A DNA stretch of 64,000 nucleotides, from assembly GCA_902592675.1 (NCBI GenBank), contig CACJFJ010000001.1, positions 62,001-126,000 on the forward strand, in the 5' to 3' direction. The translations under genes and the position numbers were made by a program. This DNA comes from an uncultured Pelagibacteraceae bacterium (GTDB taxonomy: Bacteria > Pseudomonadota > Alphaproteobacteria > Pelagibacterales > Pelagibacteraceae). The notes under the pieces are model-generated. The model was given only the letters and a program-made list of their open reading frames with translations, searched no databases and was not told the origin of the DNA. Numbering within the stretch: the first letter of the stretch is position 1; every line of letters begins with the position of its first letter. This document shows positions 6,406 to 42,182 of this stretch, in pieces.

Positions 6406-9119
6406 TTAGGGTGTCTCTCACAAGGATCTTTTCTTATCTTCCAACAAACTGCACATTTATTTCCAGACGCTTTTTTAGTCTCAACTAAAATATCCGATTG
6501 ATTATCAAAGTTAATATCAGATTTTGACACAATACAAAGTTCGGACAAATCAATATCTTTGACTATCTGCTTATATTTTTCATTAAGTTTGACGTCAAGA
6601 TTTGCTTCTAAACTTGAACCAATTTCTTTACTTGCCCTTTTTTCCTCAATACTGATGTTGCACACATCTCTAATTTTCATTAATTCAGACCATTTCTCCT
6701 CTAGTTTTTGATTTTTAAATTTATCCGGAAATTTCAAAAACTTTTCTAAATGAATGCTTTTACTTTTCGATGACACCAATTGGTAAATTTCCTCAGTTGT
6801 AAATGATAAAATTGGGGCAAACCATCTGAGTAAAGACTTTAGTAAAACATTCAAAATTTTAACACATGACTTTCTTTTCTCGGAATTAACTGAGTCACAA
6901 TATAAAGCGTCTTTTCTAATATCAAAATAAAATGCTGACAAATCCACAGTACAAAAATTTAACAATTCTTTATAGAGGTTATGGAAATCGTATTTTTGAA
7001 AACAAGTTTCAAATTTTTTATTGAGAGAATACATCTTACTTAGCATAAACTTCTCTAGCTCAGGTAAACTTTCAGTATCTAATTTATCTAAGTTAATATC
7101 TTCAAATTTATCATTAATATTTCCTAATAAATATCTGAATGTATTTCTTATTTTACGATAAGACTCAGAGTGCTGATCTAATATAGAATAATCTATTCTC
7201 AAATCCTCAGCATAATTAGATGCGGCTACCCAAATTCTTAAAATATCAGCACCATATTTTTTTAAAATGTCCTCTGGTGCGATTACATTTCCAAGAGATT
7301 TTGACATTTTAAGACCTTTTCCATCTACGACAAATCCATGAGATAAAATTGACTCAAATGGAGCTTTGCCTCTTGTCCCACAAGACTCTAATAACGAGGA
7401 GTGGAACCAGCCTCTATGTTGATCTGATCCCTCTAAATACATAGATGCAGGCCATTTAAGATCTTTTCTTTTTTCTAAAACAAAAGAATGAGTTGATCCA
7501 CTGTCAAACCAAACTTCTACAATATCACTAAGTTTATTAAAATCTTGTGCGTTATATTTATCACCTAAAAATTTTTGTGGATCATCAGAAAACCAGCAGT
7601 CCGAACCCTCTTTTTCATAAATATTTGCAATATTTTCAAATACTTCATCATCAATTAAAATTTCATTAGACTTTTTGTTTACAAAGATTGGAAGGGGTAC
7701 GCCCCATACTCTTTGTCTTGATACACACCAATCTGGTCTTGTTTCAATCATTGATTTCAATCTTTCTTTACCTTTACTTGGATAAAAAGTTGTATCATCT
7801 ATTGCTTTTAAAGCTTTACTTCTAAGTTTATGACTTTCCATAGAAATAAACCATTGTGGTGTTGCTCTATGAACTAAAGGGGCTTTTGATCTCCAAGAGT
7901 GAGGATAAGAGTGAACTAGTTCACCATTAGACAGAAGATTATTTTGATCTTTTAACTTTTCAATAACAATGGGATTGGCCTTAAAAATATGCAAACCTTC
8001 AAACAATGAAACATTTTTTGTATATTTTCCGTCATCATCAACGGTCTCAATAGCTTTAATTCCATTATTTAAACAAAGATTAAAATCATCGGGTCCGTGA
8101 CTTGGTGCACAATGAACAATGCCTGTTCCTTGTTCTGTTGTAACAAATCGAGCTTCTAACATTGGAATATCGTGGTCATAACCTAAATTAAAAAATGGAT
8201 GCTTGCAGATAGTATCTTTTAAATCTTTTCCTTTAAATTTTTTTAAATTCTTAAATTCTTTTATCCCACAATCTTTTAAAACTGAATCCAATAATGCCTC
8301 TGAAATAATGATCTTTTTATTTTTAAAATTTCCTTCATCGCTTATTTGAATTATCAAATAATCTAAACTTTCGTTGTAAGCTAAAGCTTTATTTGCCGGT
8401 ATCGTCCAAGGAGTGGTTGTCCAAATAACAATGTTACAATCATTTAATTCCTTTACTTTTGATGATTTTACTGGAAAGCAAGCGTAGATAGTATCAGATT
8501 TGTGATCTTGATATTCAACTTCTGCATCGGCTAAGGCAGTTTTTTCTACTGTCGACCATAAAACTGGTTTAAATCCTCTATAAAGGCTTCCGTCTTTTAA
8601 AAATTTCCCAAGCTCTCTAACAATTTGTGCCTCTGCATCATAACTCATTGTTGAATAGTAATTTTCCCAATCACCAACCACACCTAATCTTTTAAATTGA
8701 TCTTTATGGATCTCTATCCATTTTTCTGCAAAAGTTCGGCATTCTTTTCTAAATTCTACAATTGGAACGTCATTTTTATTTTTTTTATTCTTTTTATATT
8801 GTTCCTCAATTTTCCACTCAATAGGTAAACCATGGCAATCCCAGCCTGGTACATATACAGAGTCTTTACCATCCATTTGATGGAACTTTACAATAATATC
8901 TTTTAATATTTTATTTAAAGCAGTACCCATATGTATATTTCCATTTGCATATGGAGGACCATCGTGAAGCACAAATTTTTCCTCTCCTTTTCTTGAATTC
9001 CTCAACTCTTTATAAAGATCAATTTTTTTCCAAAATTCTAATATTTCTGGCTCTCTAATTGGTAGATTTGCTTTCATTGAAAAAGCTGTTTTCGGTAAAT
9101 TAATTTGGCTTTTGTTCAT
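6390..9119 (-). CDS. ileS: isoleucyl-tRNA synthetase
   Basis: DGPPYANGNIHMGTALNKILKD, GSDQHRGWFHSSL, KMSKSLGNV; 909 aa. Confidence 0.98.
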   Translation of the reverse strand: MNKSQINLPKTAFSMKANLPIREPEILEFWKKIDLYKELRNSRKGEEKFVLHDGPPYANGNIHMGTALNKILKDIIVKFHQMDGKDSVYVPGWDCHGLPIEWKIEEQYKKNKKNKNDVPIVEFRKECRTFAEKWIEIHKDQFKRLGVVGDWENYYSTMSYDAEAQIVRELGKFLKDGSLYRGFKPVLWSTVEKTALADAEVEYQDHKSDTIYACFPVKSSKVKELNDCNIVIWTTTPWTIPANKALAYNESLDYLIIQISDEGNFKNKKIIISEALLDSVLKDCGIKEFKNLKKFKGKDLKDTICKHPFFNLGYDHDIPMLEARFVTTEQGTGIVHCAPSHGPDDFNLCLNNGIKAIETVDDDGKYTKNVSLFEGLHIFKANPIVIEKLKDQNNLLSNGELVHSYPHSWRSKAPLVHRATPQWFISMESHKLRSKALKAIDDTTFYPSKGKERLKSMIETRPDWCVSRQRVWGVPLPIFVNKKSNEILIDDEVFENIANIYEKEGSDCWFSDDPQKFLGDKYNAQDFNKLSDIVEVWFDSGSTHSFVLEKRKDLKWPASMYLEGSDQHRGWFHSSLLESCGTRGKAPFESILSHGFVVDGKGLKMSKSLGNVIAPEDILKKYGADILRIWVAASNYAEDLRIDYSILDQHSESYRKIRNTFRYLLGNINDKFEDINLDKLDTESLPELEKFMLSKMYSLNKKFETCFQKYDFHNLYKELLNFCTVDLSAFYFDIRKDALYCDSVNSEKRKSCVKILNVLLKSLLRWFAPILSFTTEEIYQLVSSKSKSIHLEKFLKFPDKFKNQKLEEKWSELMKIRDVCNISIEEKRASKEIGSSLEANLDVKLNEKYKQIVKDIDLSELCIVSKSDINFDNQSDILVETKKASGNKCAVCWKIRKDPCERHPKCQIS

Positions 9120-36771: not shown

Positions 36772-37587
36772 ATGTCATTAGTTGAAACAGAATGGTTAGA
36801 AAAAAATTTAGATAAAGTAAAAATTATTGATTGTTCTTGGCACATGCCTCAAGTAAACAGGAACGGATACGAAGAGTATAAATTAAAACATATACTCAAT
36901 GCTATCTTTTTTGATTTAGATGCAAATTCAAAACAAGATACAGATTTACCTCACATGTTAGTTGAAAAAAATAATTGGGATAAAATTGTTTCAAATATGG
37001 GTATCGATAAAGATGATAGAATAATTATCTATGATAATTCTGATGTTATAAGTTCTTGCCGTTGTTGGTTTAATTTTATCTATTTTGGTCACGATCCCGA
37101 GTTGGTGAGTGTTTTAAATGGAGGCCTTGAAAAATGGATTAAAGAGAAAAGAGAAGTTACTGATGAGATATTTGATTATAAAAAAACGAATTATTTAAGT
37201 GTAGAAAATAAAGAATTAGTTAAAACTAAAGAAGCAATCGATAAAAATATTAATATTCAAAAATTTAAAGTGATCGATGCTAGAAGTAGAGAAAGATTTG
37301 AGGGTAAAATTGAAGAACCAAGAAAAGGCCTAAGAAGTGGAAATATCAAAAATTCTTTTTGTATTCCTTTTAATCAATGTTTAAATAAAGATAAAACTTT
37401 TAAAGATAAAAAAGAACTTGAGTCCGTTTTTAAAACTTGCTTAAAAAATATAAGAGAAAAGGATGTAGTATTTTCATGTGGTTCAGGAGTTACTGCGTGT
37501 GTTTTGGCACTAGCTTATTCTCTAATAAATGATAAATATCGATCTTGTATTTATGATGGCTCTTGGGCTGAATACGGGTTAATTTAA
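36772..37587 (+). CDS. sseA: 3-mercaptopyruvate/thiosulfate sulfurtransferase
   Basis: Two rhodanese domains; DARSRERFEG; active-site CGSGVTACV. Confidence 0.93.
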   Translation: MSLVETEWLEKNLDKVKIIDCSWHMPQVNRNGYEEYKLKHILNAIFFDLDANSKQDTDLPHMLVEKNNWDKIVSNMGIDKDDRIIIYDNSDVISSCRCWFNFIYFGHDPELVSVLNGGLEKWIKEKREVTDEIFDYKKTNYLSVENKELVKTKEAIDKNINIQKFKVIDARSRERFEGKIEEPRKGLRSGNIKNSFCIPFNQCLNKDKTFKDKKELESVFKTCLKNIREKDVVFSCGSGVTACVLALAYSLINDKYRSCIYDGSWAEYGLI

Positions 37588-37594
37588 GTAAAGT

Positions 37595-38464
37595 ATGAAA
37601 AGATCTACAAAGACTATATCTATTATTTTAATTTTTTTTCTAATCATTGCAACTGTGATTATTGGTAGAACAATGATTGGAAATCATTTTAAAAAAAAAT
37701 TTAGTAAAAGACCTCCTCCAGGAATAATTGTCACTGAAGTTGTAAAAAAAGAATTTGCTGAAAAAATAGAAACATTTGGTACTGCGATTTCAAAAAAATC
37801 TGAAACTTTTAAAATTAAGAAAGATGATCTTTTTGAAGACTTTAAATTAAAAGATTTTGTTAAAAAAGGTGATCTTCTAATAAAATTAAAAAGTGGAAAT
37901 ATTACAGCTCCGTTTAGCGGGGTCCTTGGTTATACTGGTATAACTGAAGATATTCTTATATCTAATAATATATTTATTATAACTTTAGATGATAACTCAA
38001 CAATTTATTCAGATATTAAGATTCCAGAAAATTATTCCGCATATATTAAAAAAGGTCTTCCGGTTGAAGTAAAGTTATCAAGTTTTAAAAATAAAACCTT
38101 TTCAGGTGAAGTTGATTTTGTATCGAGCAGGATAAATGCAGATACAAGAAGTATTTTATCAAGAATAAAAGTTGAAAATAGCGATCTTGAACTAATCTCG
38201 GGATCTCTATTAGAGGTAAGTGTAAAATTTAACCTTAGAAATTCATTAAGTGTACCTGATACAAGTATAATGATAGAGGGTGATAAAGCTTATGTTTATA
38301 AAATAAATGAGGAAAATATTGCAAATAAAACTGAAGTTAAAACAGGTCTGAGGAGTAACAAAAATATTGAGATAATTTCTGGGTTAACTGAGGGTGAAAT
38401 AGTTGTTGCAGAAGGATTAAAAAAAGTAAGACCCAAAGGAAAAATTAAACCTATTACAAAATAA
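37595..38464 (+). CDS. RND efflux periplasmic adaptor (membrane fusion protein), apparently lacking the alpha-hairpin
   Basis: N-terminal TM; LKSGNITAPFSGVLGYTG lipoyl region with no intervening helical hairpin; 289 aa; followed immediately by an RND pump gene. Confidence 0.88.
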   Translation: MKRSTKTISIILIFFLIIATVIIGRTMIGNHFKKKFSKRPPPGIIVTEVVKKEFAEKIETFGTAISKKSETFKIKKDDLFEDFKLKDFVKKGDLLIKLKSGNITAPFSGVLGYTGITEDILISNNIFIITLDDNSTIYSDIKIPENYSAYIKKGLPVEVKLSSFKNKTFSGEVDFVSSRINADTRSILSRIKVENSDLELISGSLLEVSVKFNLRNSLSVPDTSIMIEGDKAYVYKINEENIANKTEVKTGLRSNKNIEIISGLTEGEIVVAEGLKKVRPKGKIKPITK

Positions 38465-41400
38465 ATGTTTATTACTGAACTAAGTATAAAAAGACCAGCT
38501 GTTTCTTGGGTAATGTCTTTAATCTTGATTATTTTTGGCTTATTTGTCTTTTGGAAATTACCAGTAAGAGAATTACCAAACGGAATTCAACCGCCTGTTG
38601 TTCAGGTACAAGTAAATTATACATCTGCATCCGCATCAATAGTAGATCAAGAAGTTACTCAAGTAGTTGAGGATGTTATTGGAGGAGCCGAAGGTATTAA
38701 AAATATAGACTCTAAATCTGAAAATGGAAGAAGTACAATAAATGTAGAATTTGATACTAGTATCGATTTAGATAATGCTGCTAATGATATCAGAGAGAGA
38801 GTTGCAAGAGTTGTGGATAATCTACCATCAGAGTCTGACCCTCCTCAAATATTAAAAAGGGCTGCGGGTTTTACTACAACTATGTGGTTATCTTTGTCGT
38901 CCGCAACTTGGAGTGATCTCGAACTAGGAGATTATGCTGAGAGATATTTGGTTGATCAATTTTCTAGTATAAAAAATGTTGGAAGAATCTTAGTTGGTGG
39001 TTTAAGAGAGTTGAGTATAAGAGTCTGGATAGATCCAATCAAACTTGCCGCAAATGATTTAACCATTAAAGAAGTTGAAATTGCAATGCGTGGAGAAAAT
39101 ATAAGTCTTCCTGCTGGCACCCTTGAAGCAAATAACATTGACCTGACATTGAACTTGGATAAATCATATAATGACATAAATTCAATAAAACAATTACCAA
39201 TAAAAAAAACAAATAATAAAGTCATTTTGTTATCTGATGTCGCTGATATTGAATTTGGACCTGTTTCTGAAAAAACACTTTTTAAAGCTCAAACAAAGGA
39301 TCAAGTAAATTTAAAAACTGTAGGCATTGGTATTTATGCTAGAAGTGGAGCCTCAACTGTCGAGCTATCTAAAGATATTAAAAAAAAGATAATAGAAGTT
39401 AAAAAATCTTTACCAAGTGAACTAGATTTAAGGGTTTCATTTAATAGAGCAAACTATGTGGAAGCTGCAATTGAAGAAGTGTACAAAACGCTATTAATTG
39501 CCTTTGTCTTAGTAGTACTAATTATTTATTTATTTCTTGGAAATCTCAAGGCTGTAATTGTTCCAGCAATTGCTCTTCCTGTAAGCTTGATAGCATCTTT
39601 TTTAGGTCTTTATATTTTTGGATTATCGATAAATATATTCGTACTTTTAAGTTTTATTTTAGCAATTGGAATAATTACTGATGACTCAGTAATTATGACA
39701 GATGCTATTTACAGACGTATAGAAAATGGGGAGACGCCATTAGTTGCAGCTTACAAAGGTTCTAAACAAATTTCTTTTGCAATTATTGCAACAACATTAA
39801 TTTTGGTAGCTGTATTTTTACCTCTAATTTTTATTGAGGGAATTTCAGGAACATTGTTTAGAGAAACAGCAATTGCATTATCATTTTCAATAGTAGTCTC
39901 ATCATTTGTTGCTCTTACTTTATCGCCTATGCTTGCAAGTAAATTTTTAAGTAAAAAAATTACGAAGAAAATTTTTATACAGAAATTTGAAAAAATATTC
40001 TTAAGCTTTGCAAAGTTTTATAAAGAAACTTTAGATACAGTTGCTCATAAAACAAAATTGGTTAGTGTATTTATAATTTTTATAATTATTTGTTCTATAT
40101 TATTATTTAGTTTCTCAAAAAAAGAATTATTGCCAATGGAAGATCGAGGTGCTTACTTGATTATTGGTGCAACTGATGAAGGCAGTTCTTTTGAATACAC
40201 TCAAGAACAGGCACAAAAAGTTGAAGCTAGATTAATTCCACTTTTACAGGCCGATGATAGTCCGTATTCAAGATTCATCATGAGAGTGCCAGGTTTTGGC
40301 AGTTCTGCAAATTCATATAACAGTTTTATTATAATTGCACTTTTAGATGATTGGAAAAATAGAGAGAAGGGACAACAAGTTGTTTTAAGAGAGGCTATAG
40401 GGAAAATTGTTACACTGCCTCAGGCTCTTGCATTCCCAATATCTCCACAATCAATTAGAATTTCTAATTATAATAAACCAGTGCAAATGGTTATTTATGG
40501 AAGCACATATGAAGAACTTGAAGAGATACAAAAAAAAGTGATAAAAAAATTAAGATTTAATAAGAATCTTTCAAGAATTGAATCTGATTACAGTCGAAAT
40601 AAACCTGAGATAAAATTAGTAGTTAATAAGAATAAAGCTAAAGATTTAGGTATTTCAACAAGAGCTATTGGAGAAACACTTGAGACTCTTTATGGTGGAA
40701 AAAAAGTCACAACTTTCAACAAATTAGGCAAGGAATATCCAATTATAGTTCAGCAATATTTATCTGATAGAAGGAACAAAGAGGGGGTTTCTAAAATTTT
40801 TGTTCGTTCTGAAACAAATGGAAAACTAATTTCATTATCAAATTTAGTAAGTTTTAAAGAAGAAGGTTCTGCAAAACAACTTGCAAGATACAATAGACAA
40901 AGAGCAGTTACAATATCTGCGAATATTAATGAAGGATATACTTTAACTGAAGCAATCAAATTCTTTGAAGACGTCATGTCAGATTTAGCCCCAAAAAATC
41001 AAATTACTTGGAAAGGTAAATCAGAAGAAATTAAAGAAACTAGCAATGAGTTGTTTATAATTTTTGCACTAGCCCTGCTTACAGCCTACTTAGTAATGGC
41101 AGCAACATTTAACTCTTTCATTCATCCATTCATTATAGTTTTGACTGTTCCTTTGGCTATTTTTGGTGGATTAGTATTTATTTTATTTTTGAATAGTTCA
41201 GTAAATATTTTTTCTCAGATTGCTCTCATTATACTTATTGGGATATCCACTAAAAACAGTATCTTAATCGTAGATTATGCTAATCGAATAAGAACTACAG
41301 GAAAAAGTATTGATTTAGCAGTAAAAGAAGCTTGTGAAGTAAGATTTCGTCCTATAATCATGACATCTTTGAGCACAATGATCGCAATGATACCTCTAGT

Positions 41401-41593
41401 TATTGGGAATATTGGTCCAGGAGCCGGTGAGGGTTCACGATTAGCTGTGGGAGCTACCATTTTGGGAGGTATGATAATTTCAACTTTCTTTACTTTATAT
41501 GTTACCCCTTCAATGTATTTGGCTTTAGCAAAAAATACTAAAAGAATTGATATAATAGATCTTGAATTGAAAAAAGAACTTACTAAAAAATAA
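38465..41593 (+). CDS. RND-family efflux transporter permease (HAE1-like)
   Basis: 1042 aa; FITELSIKRPAVSWVMSL; TM4 GIITDDSVIMTDAIYRRIE; GGLVFILFLNSSVNIFSQIALIILIG. Confidence 0.95.
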   Translation: MFITELSIKRPAVSWVMSLILIIFGLFVFWKLPVRELPNGIQPPVVQVQVNYTSASASIVDQEVTQVVEDVIGGAEGIKNIDSKSENGRSTINVEFDTSIDLDNAANDIRERVARVVDNLPSESDPPQILKRAAGFTTTMWLSLSSATWSDLELGDYAERYLVDQFSSIKNVGRILVGGLRELSIRVWIDPIKLAANDLTIKEVEIAMRGENISLPAGTLEANNIDLTLNLDKSYNDINSIKQLPIKKTNNKVILLSDVADIEFGPVSEKTLFKAQTKDQVNLKTVGIGIYARSGASTVELSKDIKKKIIEVKKSLPSELDLRVSFNRANYVEAAIEEVYKTLLIAFVLVVLIIYLFLGNLKAVIVPAIALPVSLIASFLGLYIFGLSINIFVLLSFILAIGIITDDSVIMTDAIYRRIENGETPLVAAYKGSKQISFAIIATTLILVAVFLPLIFIEGISGTLFRETAIALSFSIVVSSFVALTLSPMLASKFLSKKITKKIFIQKFEKIFLSFAKFYKETLDTVAHKTKLVSVFIIFIIICSILLFSFSKKELLPMEDRGAYLIIGATDEGSSFEYTQEQAQKVEARLIPLLQADDSPYSRFIMRVPGFGSSANSYNSFIIIALLDDWKNREKGQQVVLREAIGKIVTLPQALAFPISPQSIRISNYNKPVQMVIYGSTYEELEEIQKKVIKKLRFNKNLSRIESDYSRNKPEIKLVVNKNKAKDLGISTRAIGETLETLYGGKKVTTFNKLGKEYPIIVQQYLSDRRNKEGVSKIFVRSETNGKLISLSNLVSFKEEGSAKQLARYNRQRAVTISANINEGYTLTEAIKFFEDVMSDLAPKNQITWKGKSEEIKETSNELFIIFALALLTAYLVMAATFNSFIHPFIIVLTVPLAIFGGLVFILFLNSSVNIFSQIALIILIGISTKNSILIVDYANRIRTTGKSIDLAVKEACEVRFRPIIMTSLSTMIAMIPLVIGNIGPGAGEGSRLAVGATILGGMIISTFFTLYVTPSMYLALAKNTKRIDIIDLELKKELTKK

Positions 41594-42182
41594 TATATTT
41601 TTTTTTATTAAGTGAATTTTTACATTTAGATAATTGTTTTCTATAAATATCTGACTGTTTTTTCACTTTCCGCGCTAATTGAATAACTTTTTTATTTTTC
41701 TCGTAATTTTTAAAATTTCCCCATCCCTCATGGTAAGCAAGATATTGCTTAAATGCGTCTTTTTTTGAGATCTTTAAAATAGATTCTGATTTATTTGTAT
41801 ACCAACCAATAAAGTCGACACTATCTTTAAATCTTACTCTGGTCGCCAATTTATTACCTGTTTCTTGTTTATATTGCTCCCAAGTACCTTTCACTGCTTG
41901 AGAATAACCTAATGAACTTGATGGTCTTTTATAAGGAATAATTTTAAATATTCTTTTTCTAGGAGGTTTTGCCAACCAATCAAAATCAGACTCCATTTTA
42001 ATTATTGCAAGCTGTATATAAATCGGAGTACCCCATTTATCCTCAACTTTTTTTGTGTGCTTATACCATAGATACTTTTCATTAAAGATTGAACAACTAT
42101 TTGAAGTATTTACAGGAATTGATGAACATCCAACTATTAAGAAATAAAAAATAAAGATTAATTTATTTTTTAAAAAATCCAT
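41583..42182 (-). CDS. lytic transglycosylase-like lipoprotein
   Basis: Lipobox VGCS; IQLAIIKMESDFD; SLGYSQAVKGTWEQYK; YLAYHEGWGNF. Confidence 0.8.
   Translation of the reverse strand: MDFLKNKLIFIFYFLIVGCSSIPVNTSNSCSIFNEKYLWYKHTKKVEDKWGTPIYIQLAIIKMESDFDWLAKPPRKRIFKIIPYKRPSSSLGYSQAVKGTWEQYKQETGNKLATRVRFKDSVDFIGWYTNKSESILKISKKDAFKQYLAYHEGWGNFKNYEKNKKVIQLARKVKKQSDIYRKQLSKCKNSLNKKKYIIF

Follow-up and report, generated by a model that had tools for sequence, protein, structure and literature searches.

How pumps of the resistance-nodulation-division (RND) family connect to the outer-membrane channel TolC has long been debated; tip-to-tip contact through the alpha-helical hairpin of the adaptor is the accepted answer, and BesA is the structurally proven exception. 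Here, we describe a hairpin-free adaptor encoded beside its RND pump in a 64,000-nucleotide stretch of contig CACJFJ010000001.1 (assembly GCA_902592675.1; the whole stretch is hereafter called the window), from an uncultured member of the Pelagibacteraceae (SAR11), very abundant ocean bacteria. BesA of Borrelia burgdorferi has no hairpin, and such sequences have been noted in Borrelia, Treponema and Spirochaeta and in rare cases in Legionella (Greene et al., PMC3807786); the authors concluded that the hairpin-free BesABC system functions as a tripartite pump (PMC3807786). The absence of the BesA hairpin was considered fully incompatible with tip-to-tip models in a 2015 review, in which the gate of BesC was also reported to be disrupted (PMC4446572). 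In Escherichia coli, TolC is reported to dock to the RLS motif of the adaptor via a Val-Gly-Leu/Thr motif (VGL/VGT) at its tips (PMC7683400). The adaptor gene of the window and the parts of its lipoyl domain are as follows:

37595..38464, + strand: hairpin-free adaptor (RND membrane-fusion protein) with an N-terminal membrane anchor, 289 aa (TIGR01730, HlyD_D23, AlphaFold2, Foldseek)
37796..37888, + strand: first lipoyl half, approximately residues 68–98, ending in VKKGDLLIKL (sequence compared to sister adaptors)
37889..37900, + strand: junction KSGN, residues 99–102, at the position occupied in sister adaptors by an alpha-hairpin of approximately 64 residues (sequence, AlphaFold2)
37901..37990, + strand: second lipoyl half, approximately residues 103–132, ITAPFSGVLGYTG... 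(sequence; the HlyD_3 match starts at residue 103)

The protein was assigned to the RND adaptors based on HlyD_D23 (Pfam, 62 bits) and HlyD_3, both above cut-off, and on TIGR01730 RND_mfp at 139 bits (cut-off 94.9), a match covering the model from position 131 onward only. The lipoyl half-motifs VKKGDLLIKL and ITAPFSG were separated by 3–4 residues, compared to approximately 64 in sister adaptors, as read directly from the adaptor sequences. The usual alpha-helical hairpin between the lipoyl halves is thus absent and a short loop joins them, as in BesA; direct joining of the halves and loss of the hairpin had been proposed in a first-pass annotation of this locus and were confirmed. The adaptor contains no cysteine and starts with a helix (residues 3–35), indicating that it is not a lipoprotein of the BesA type.

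An AlphaFold2 model of the adaptor, built on a shallow alignment of close homologs only, was of low confidence (mean predicted local distance difference test score, pLDDT, 58). After the long N-terminal helix it consisted mostly of strands, with strands 94–98 and 101–104 joined by a tight turn, and no hairpin was seen there or elsewhere in the protein; its C-terminal quarter was untrustworthy. Relocation of the hairpin within the adaptor was rejected, since the relatives have no insert anywhere and the model has no paired long helices (residues 216–289 being of low confidence). When the model (pLDDT 58) was compared to the PDB with Foldseek, BesA ranked first (E 2.9e-08; PDB 4KKS, 4KKT, 4KKU), in support of the likeness to BesA suggested initially. 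Because the TM-scores to BesA were just 0.33–0.37, this ranking is supportive only.

Hairpin-free adaptors had been presumed rare at the outset; in the Pelagibacteraceae they proved to be the rule. When 197 genomes of the order were searched with a profile, the adaptor was detected in 142 of the 144 sampled genomes of the family, covering all six sampled genera, and all 142 order genomes with a match belonged to this family. The same search yielded no match in the second family of the order or in two draft genomes of the Pelagibacteraceae. Apart from two fragments, the matches spanned the entire protein in approximately 864 bases and the full-length ones had no insert; close adaptors of the same genus likewise aligned end to end. 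The PPPG-to-APF spacing in 124 parsed SAR11 adaptor open reading frames (ORFs) was 65 residues (119 ORFs) or 66 (5 ORFs), while 13 further adaptor loci fell outside the pattern used for parsing. A local deletion, frameshift or assembly error was virtually ruled out by the recurrence of the same junction in the 124 ORFs and in complete single-contig genomes. No phage-borne copies of the adaptor were found in viral contigs. Some SAR11 adaptors (genus relatives L019–L024) carry a lysine-rich C-terminal tail of approximately 40–50 residues with an FDWLKNIFKK-like stretch, which the adaptor of the window does not have.

The nearest pumps outside the order were approximately 42% identical to the SAR11 pump, and the adaptors encoded upstream of these alphaproteobacterial pumps had a regular hairpin of approximately 64 residues. 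These adaptor-RND pairs (e.g., L180, L181, L183, L185; adaptor directly upstream of the pump, pumps approximately 40–42% identical to that of SAR11) share the lipoyl pattern of the SAR11 adaptor, including GTA..N.S and I.APF.G..G, but differ in the ordinary hairpin, mostly with an RLS-like motif. The strict form of this motif (R-x3-L-x6-S/T) was present in 13 of 19 sister adaptor hairpins and in none of 30 SAR11 adaptors in the corresponding region. In the pump tree, the SAR11 pumps formed one group (support 100/100) nested in the alphaproteobacterial set, with some deeper forks weakly supported. The simplest reading is that the hairpin was deleted from an ordinary hairpin-bearing ancestor on the Pelagibacteraceae branch. 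The loss would predate diversification of the family, since 142 of its 144 genomes are hairpin-free and the closest outside pumps lie beside hairpin-bearing adaptors.

The SAR11 adaptor resembles the adaptors MexJ, MexA and CusB in sequence over the second lipoyl half, the barrel and the membrane-proximal domain. The solved structures of these three are all hairpin-bearing. A sequence profile search of the PDB with the SAR11 adaptor did not return BesA at E<=1. Because its nearest relatives carry hairpins and the sequence profile misses BesA, the SAR11 adaptor appears to be a case independent of BesA. The two systems have in common a TolC-type outer-membrane factor (OMF) in the organism but differ in several respects: the SAR11 adaptor has an N-terminal helix as its anchor, whereas BesA is a lipoprotein; the lipoyl junction measures 3–4 residues vs. 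a 9-residue loop in BesA; and tolC is unlinked in SAR11, whereas the OMF gene of BesABC lies inside the operon.

The first-pass annotation had also pointed out that no OMF gene lies nearby and, for want of one, had suggested a minimal or non-tripartite pump. The first statement holds for the window but not for the lineage, and the second was weakened, as TolC is conserved in the family and encoded elsewhere: 38 of the 39 near-complete genomes of the family have it, among them every one of the 11 single-contig genomes, and so do 47 of 61 genomes of the genus. In the complete genome G012, tolC is flanked by a kinase-like gene and recA. No OEP match was obtained in the window's own assembly (approximately 80% complete), all of which was searched. 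In this assembly (G000), contig C9 ends inside recA (L271, approximately 6958–7225), past which alaS, icd, psd and pss lie in the expected order; the contig-break check left approximately 0.27 Mb of contig interiors unread. Because C9 breaks in recA, where tolC should come next, this break is the best explanation for the missing tolC, and a SAR11 genome without TolC was rejected for the lineage.

Other possible clients of TolC are few. An adaptor hit was obtained in 37 near-complete genomes, and in 33 of them the hairpin-free adaptor was the sole HlyD_3 match above cut-off; a search with CusB_dom_1 revealed no further adaptors, and each of 11 family genomes tested had one full-length RND pump. 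Four genomes contained an extra HlyD-like gene set and a second, larger OMF. In a few SAR11 genomes, loci encoding giant proteins (L230, L231, L232, L233, L234, L235; lengths such as 2230 and 3262 aa; N-terminus resembling FIEALEQRIMLDGAG) adjoin the second, larger OMF (approximately 640–840 aa) and HlyD-like genes (approximately 240 and 700 aa); these make up a distinct secretion cluster that is uncommon.

The valine of the VGL/VGT motif was lost at both TolC tips in all 30 SAR11 genomes compared (31 table rows for tips and gate, G012 appearing twice), being replaced by R/K/N at one tip and S/T/R/A at the other; the second tip was one residue longer in most of them. The valine was kept in E. 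coli, in family f2 (3/3) and in most outgroup OMFs (14/19 at the first tip, 12/20 at the second). Family f2 belongs to the same order, and its locus (e.g., L037), from an AT-rich relative, contains an adaptor, RND pumps and TolC as in SAR11; it differs in that the adaptor has a hairpin, the TolC gene is adjacent, the TolC tips keep VG and the RND pumps lie on a distant branch. As judged by these alignments, the tip change is specific, affects an unlinked gene and is of the type to be expected from loss of the hairpin. The primary gate was retained (D153 and Y362 without exception, R367 with one exception, D371 as D or E), and primary-gate loss as reported for BesC (PMC4446572) was therefore rejected for SAR11. 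D374 was lost throughout, as it was in family f2, for which reason its loss was rejected as a signature of the hairpin-free state.

The partner of the adaptor follows immediately:

38465..41593, + strand: RND pump, HAE-1 type (AcrB/AcrD/AcrF-type), 1042 aa (ACR_tran, relay residues, docking subdomain length)

The stop codon of the adaptor directly abuts the start of the pump gene with zero intergenic bases, an arrangement kept in relatives. As annotated initially, the pump is of full length, its ACR_tran match (837 bits) spanning positions 2–1020, and has its paired aspartates, D406/D407, intact; these and K930, which is also present, are the proton-relay residues. Its docking subdomains are of ordinary length (90 residues, equal to those of sisters), and a compensating extension of them was accordingly rejected.

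Absence of the hairpin and of an adjacent tolC, loss of the VGL tips and a pump without compensating extension would also suit a two-component inner-membrane exporter, in which adaptor and pump move substrate into the periplasm only (or remodel the envelope) while TolC serves an unrecognised transporter. We regard this exporter as a serious but less probable alternative, since TolC is kept in nearly all near-complete genomes (38/39), mostly without another HlyD-type adaptor above cut-off, the pump docking subdomains keep their normal length and the BesABC precedent is tripartite. The best explanation, in which we place moderate confidence based on sequence comparison and the low-confidence structure model, is a tripartite pump that recruits an unlinked TolC without a hairpin, BesABC-like but independently evolved. 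Adaptor and pump would then constitute the single RND efflux system of the Pelagibacteraceae, with the pump drawing substrate from the inner-membrane/periplasm side at the expense of the proton motive force. The adaptor would be held by its N-terminal helix, its membrane-proximal, beta-barrel and lipoyl domains wrapping the pump, and TolC would be seated directly on the lipoyl ring and/or the pump docking domain rather than gripping hairpin tips. The docking tips of TolC would have diverged along with deletion of the adaptor hairpin. Physical assembly of the three proteins, opening of TolC, efflux and the substrates are presumed in this proposal.

Several observations weigh against such a tripartite pump. 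The tolC gene is unlinked to the pump gene (222 kb vs. 69 kb in G012), although the sister pumps with hairpin-bearing adaptors are also mostly without an adjacent TolC gene (present in 1 of 19 neighbourhoods). Alignment with sisters revealed no extension of the pump docking subdomains that would bridge the gap. The loss of D374 is non-specific, given that the adaptor of family f2 retains its hairpin. The loss of the tip valine is a single evolutionary event in fast-evolving SAR11 proteins, so that the 30 genomes are not 30 independent observations. Finally, the adaptor model is of low confidence and its TM-scores to BesA are low. The geometry of the gap would also suit a coiled-coil contributed in trans by a separate, unrecognised protein that links the adaptor to TolC; Greene et al. 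were unable to exclude such a protein for BesA (PMC3807786). For SAR11 we regard it as improbable: no gene of hairpin-like character was noted next to either the pump or tolC in G012 and no candidate emerged, no systematic genome search for coiled-coil proteins having been made.

Two genes next to the adaptor-pump pair are conserved neighbours, with no pump role implied:

36772..37587, + strand: rhodanese-type sulfurtransferase (Pfam Rhodanese; order kept in the complete relative G012)
41583..42182, − strand: lytic transglycosylase-like gene, convergent (Pfam SLT_4, 224 bits; also in G012)

Within the pump, residues approximately 274–332 (window 39284–39460) are the least conserved part of the porter domain, with 25% identity to sisters vs. 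52% among sisters; in this segment the pumps of genus g1 are 5 residues longer than all sisters and G085. A pump 80% identical to that of the window, with one stop read through, was encountered in a genome assigned to another family (G400:C23:1102-4224), possibly owing to contamination or misassignment.

The standard picture of the RND pump-TolC connection probably does not apply to SAR11, because the adaptor has lost the arm that normally plugs into TolC and the corresponding docking motif has disappeared from TolC. We see about an even chance that SAR11 evolved, separately from the spirochaetes, a tripartite pump that recruits a gated TolC and opens it with no hairpin involved, the loss of the adaptor hairpin being matched by that of VGL at both tips. 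This would be a second, well-populated exception to tip-to-tip contact, in which the primary gate is kept, unlike that reported for BesC. No earlier description of a hairpin-free adaptor in SAR11 was found in the literature examined. An abundant marine family has thus lost the hairpin and the TolC docking motif, and kept the pump and TolC as apparently its sole such system; its hundreds of sequences, set against clean sister groups that have the hairpin, offer material on how a pump without a hairpin engages its channel and opens it.
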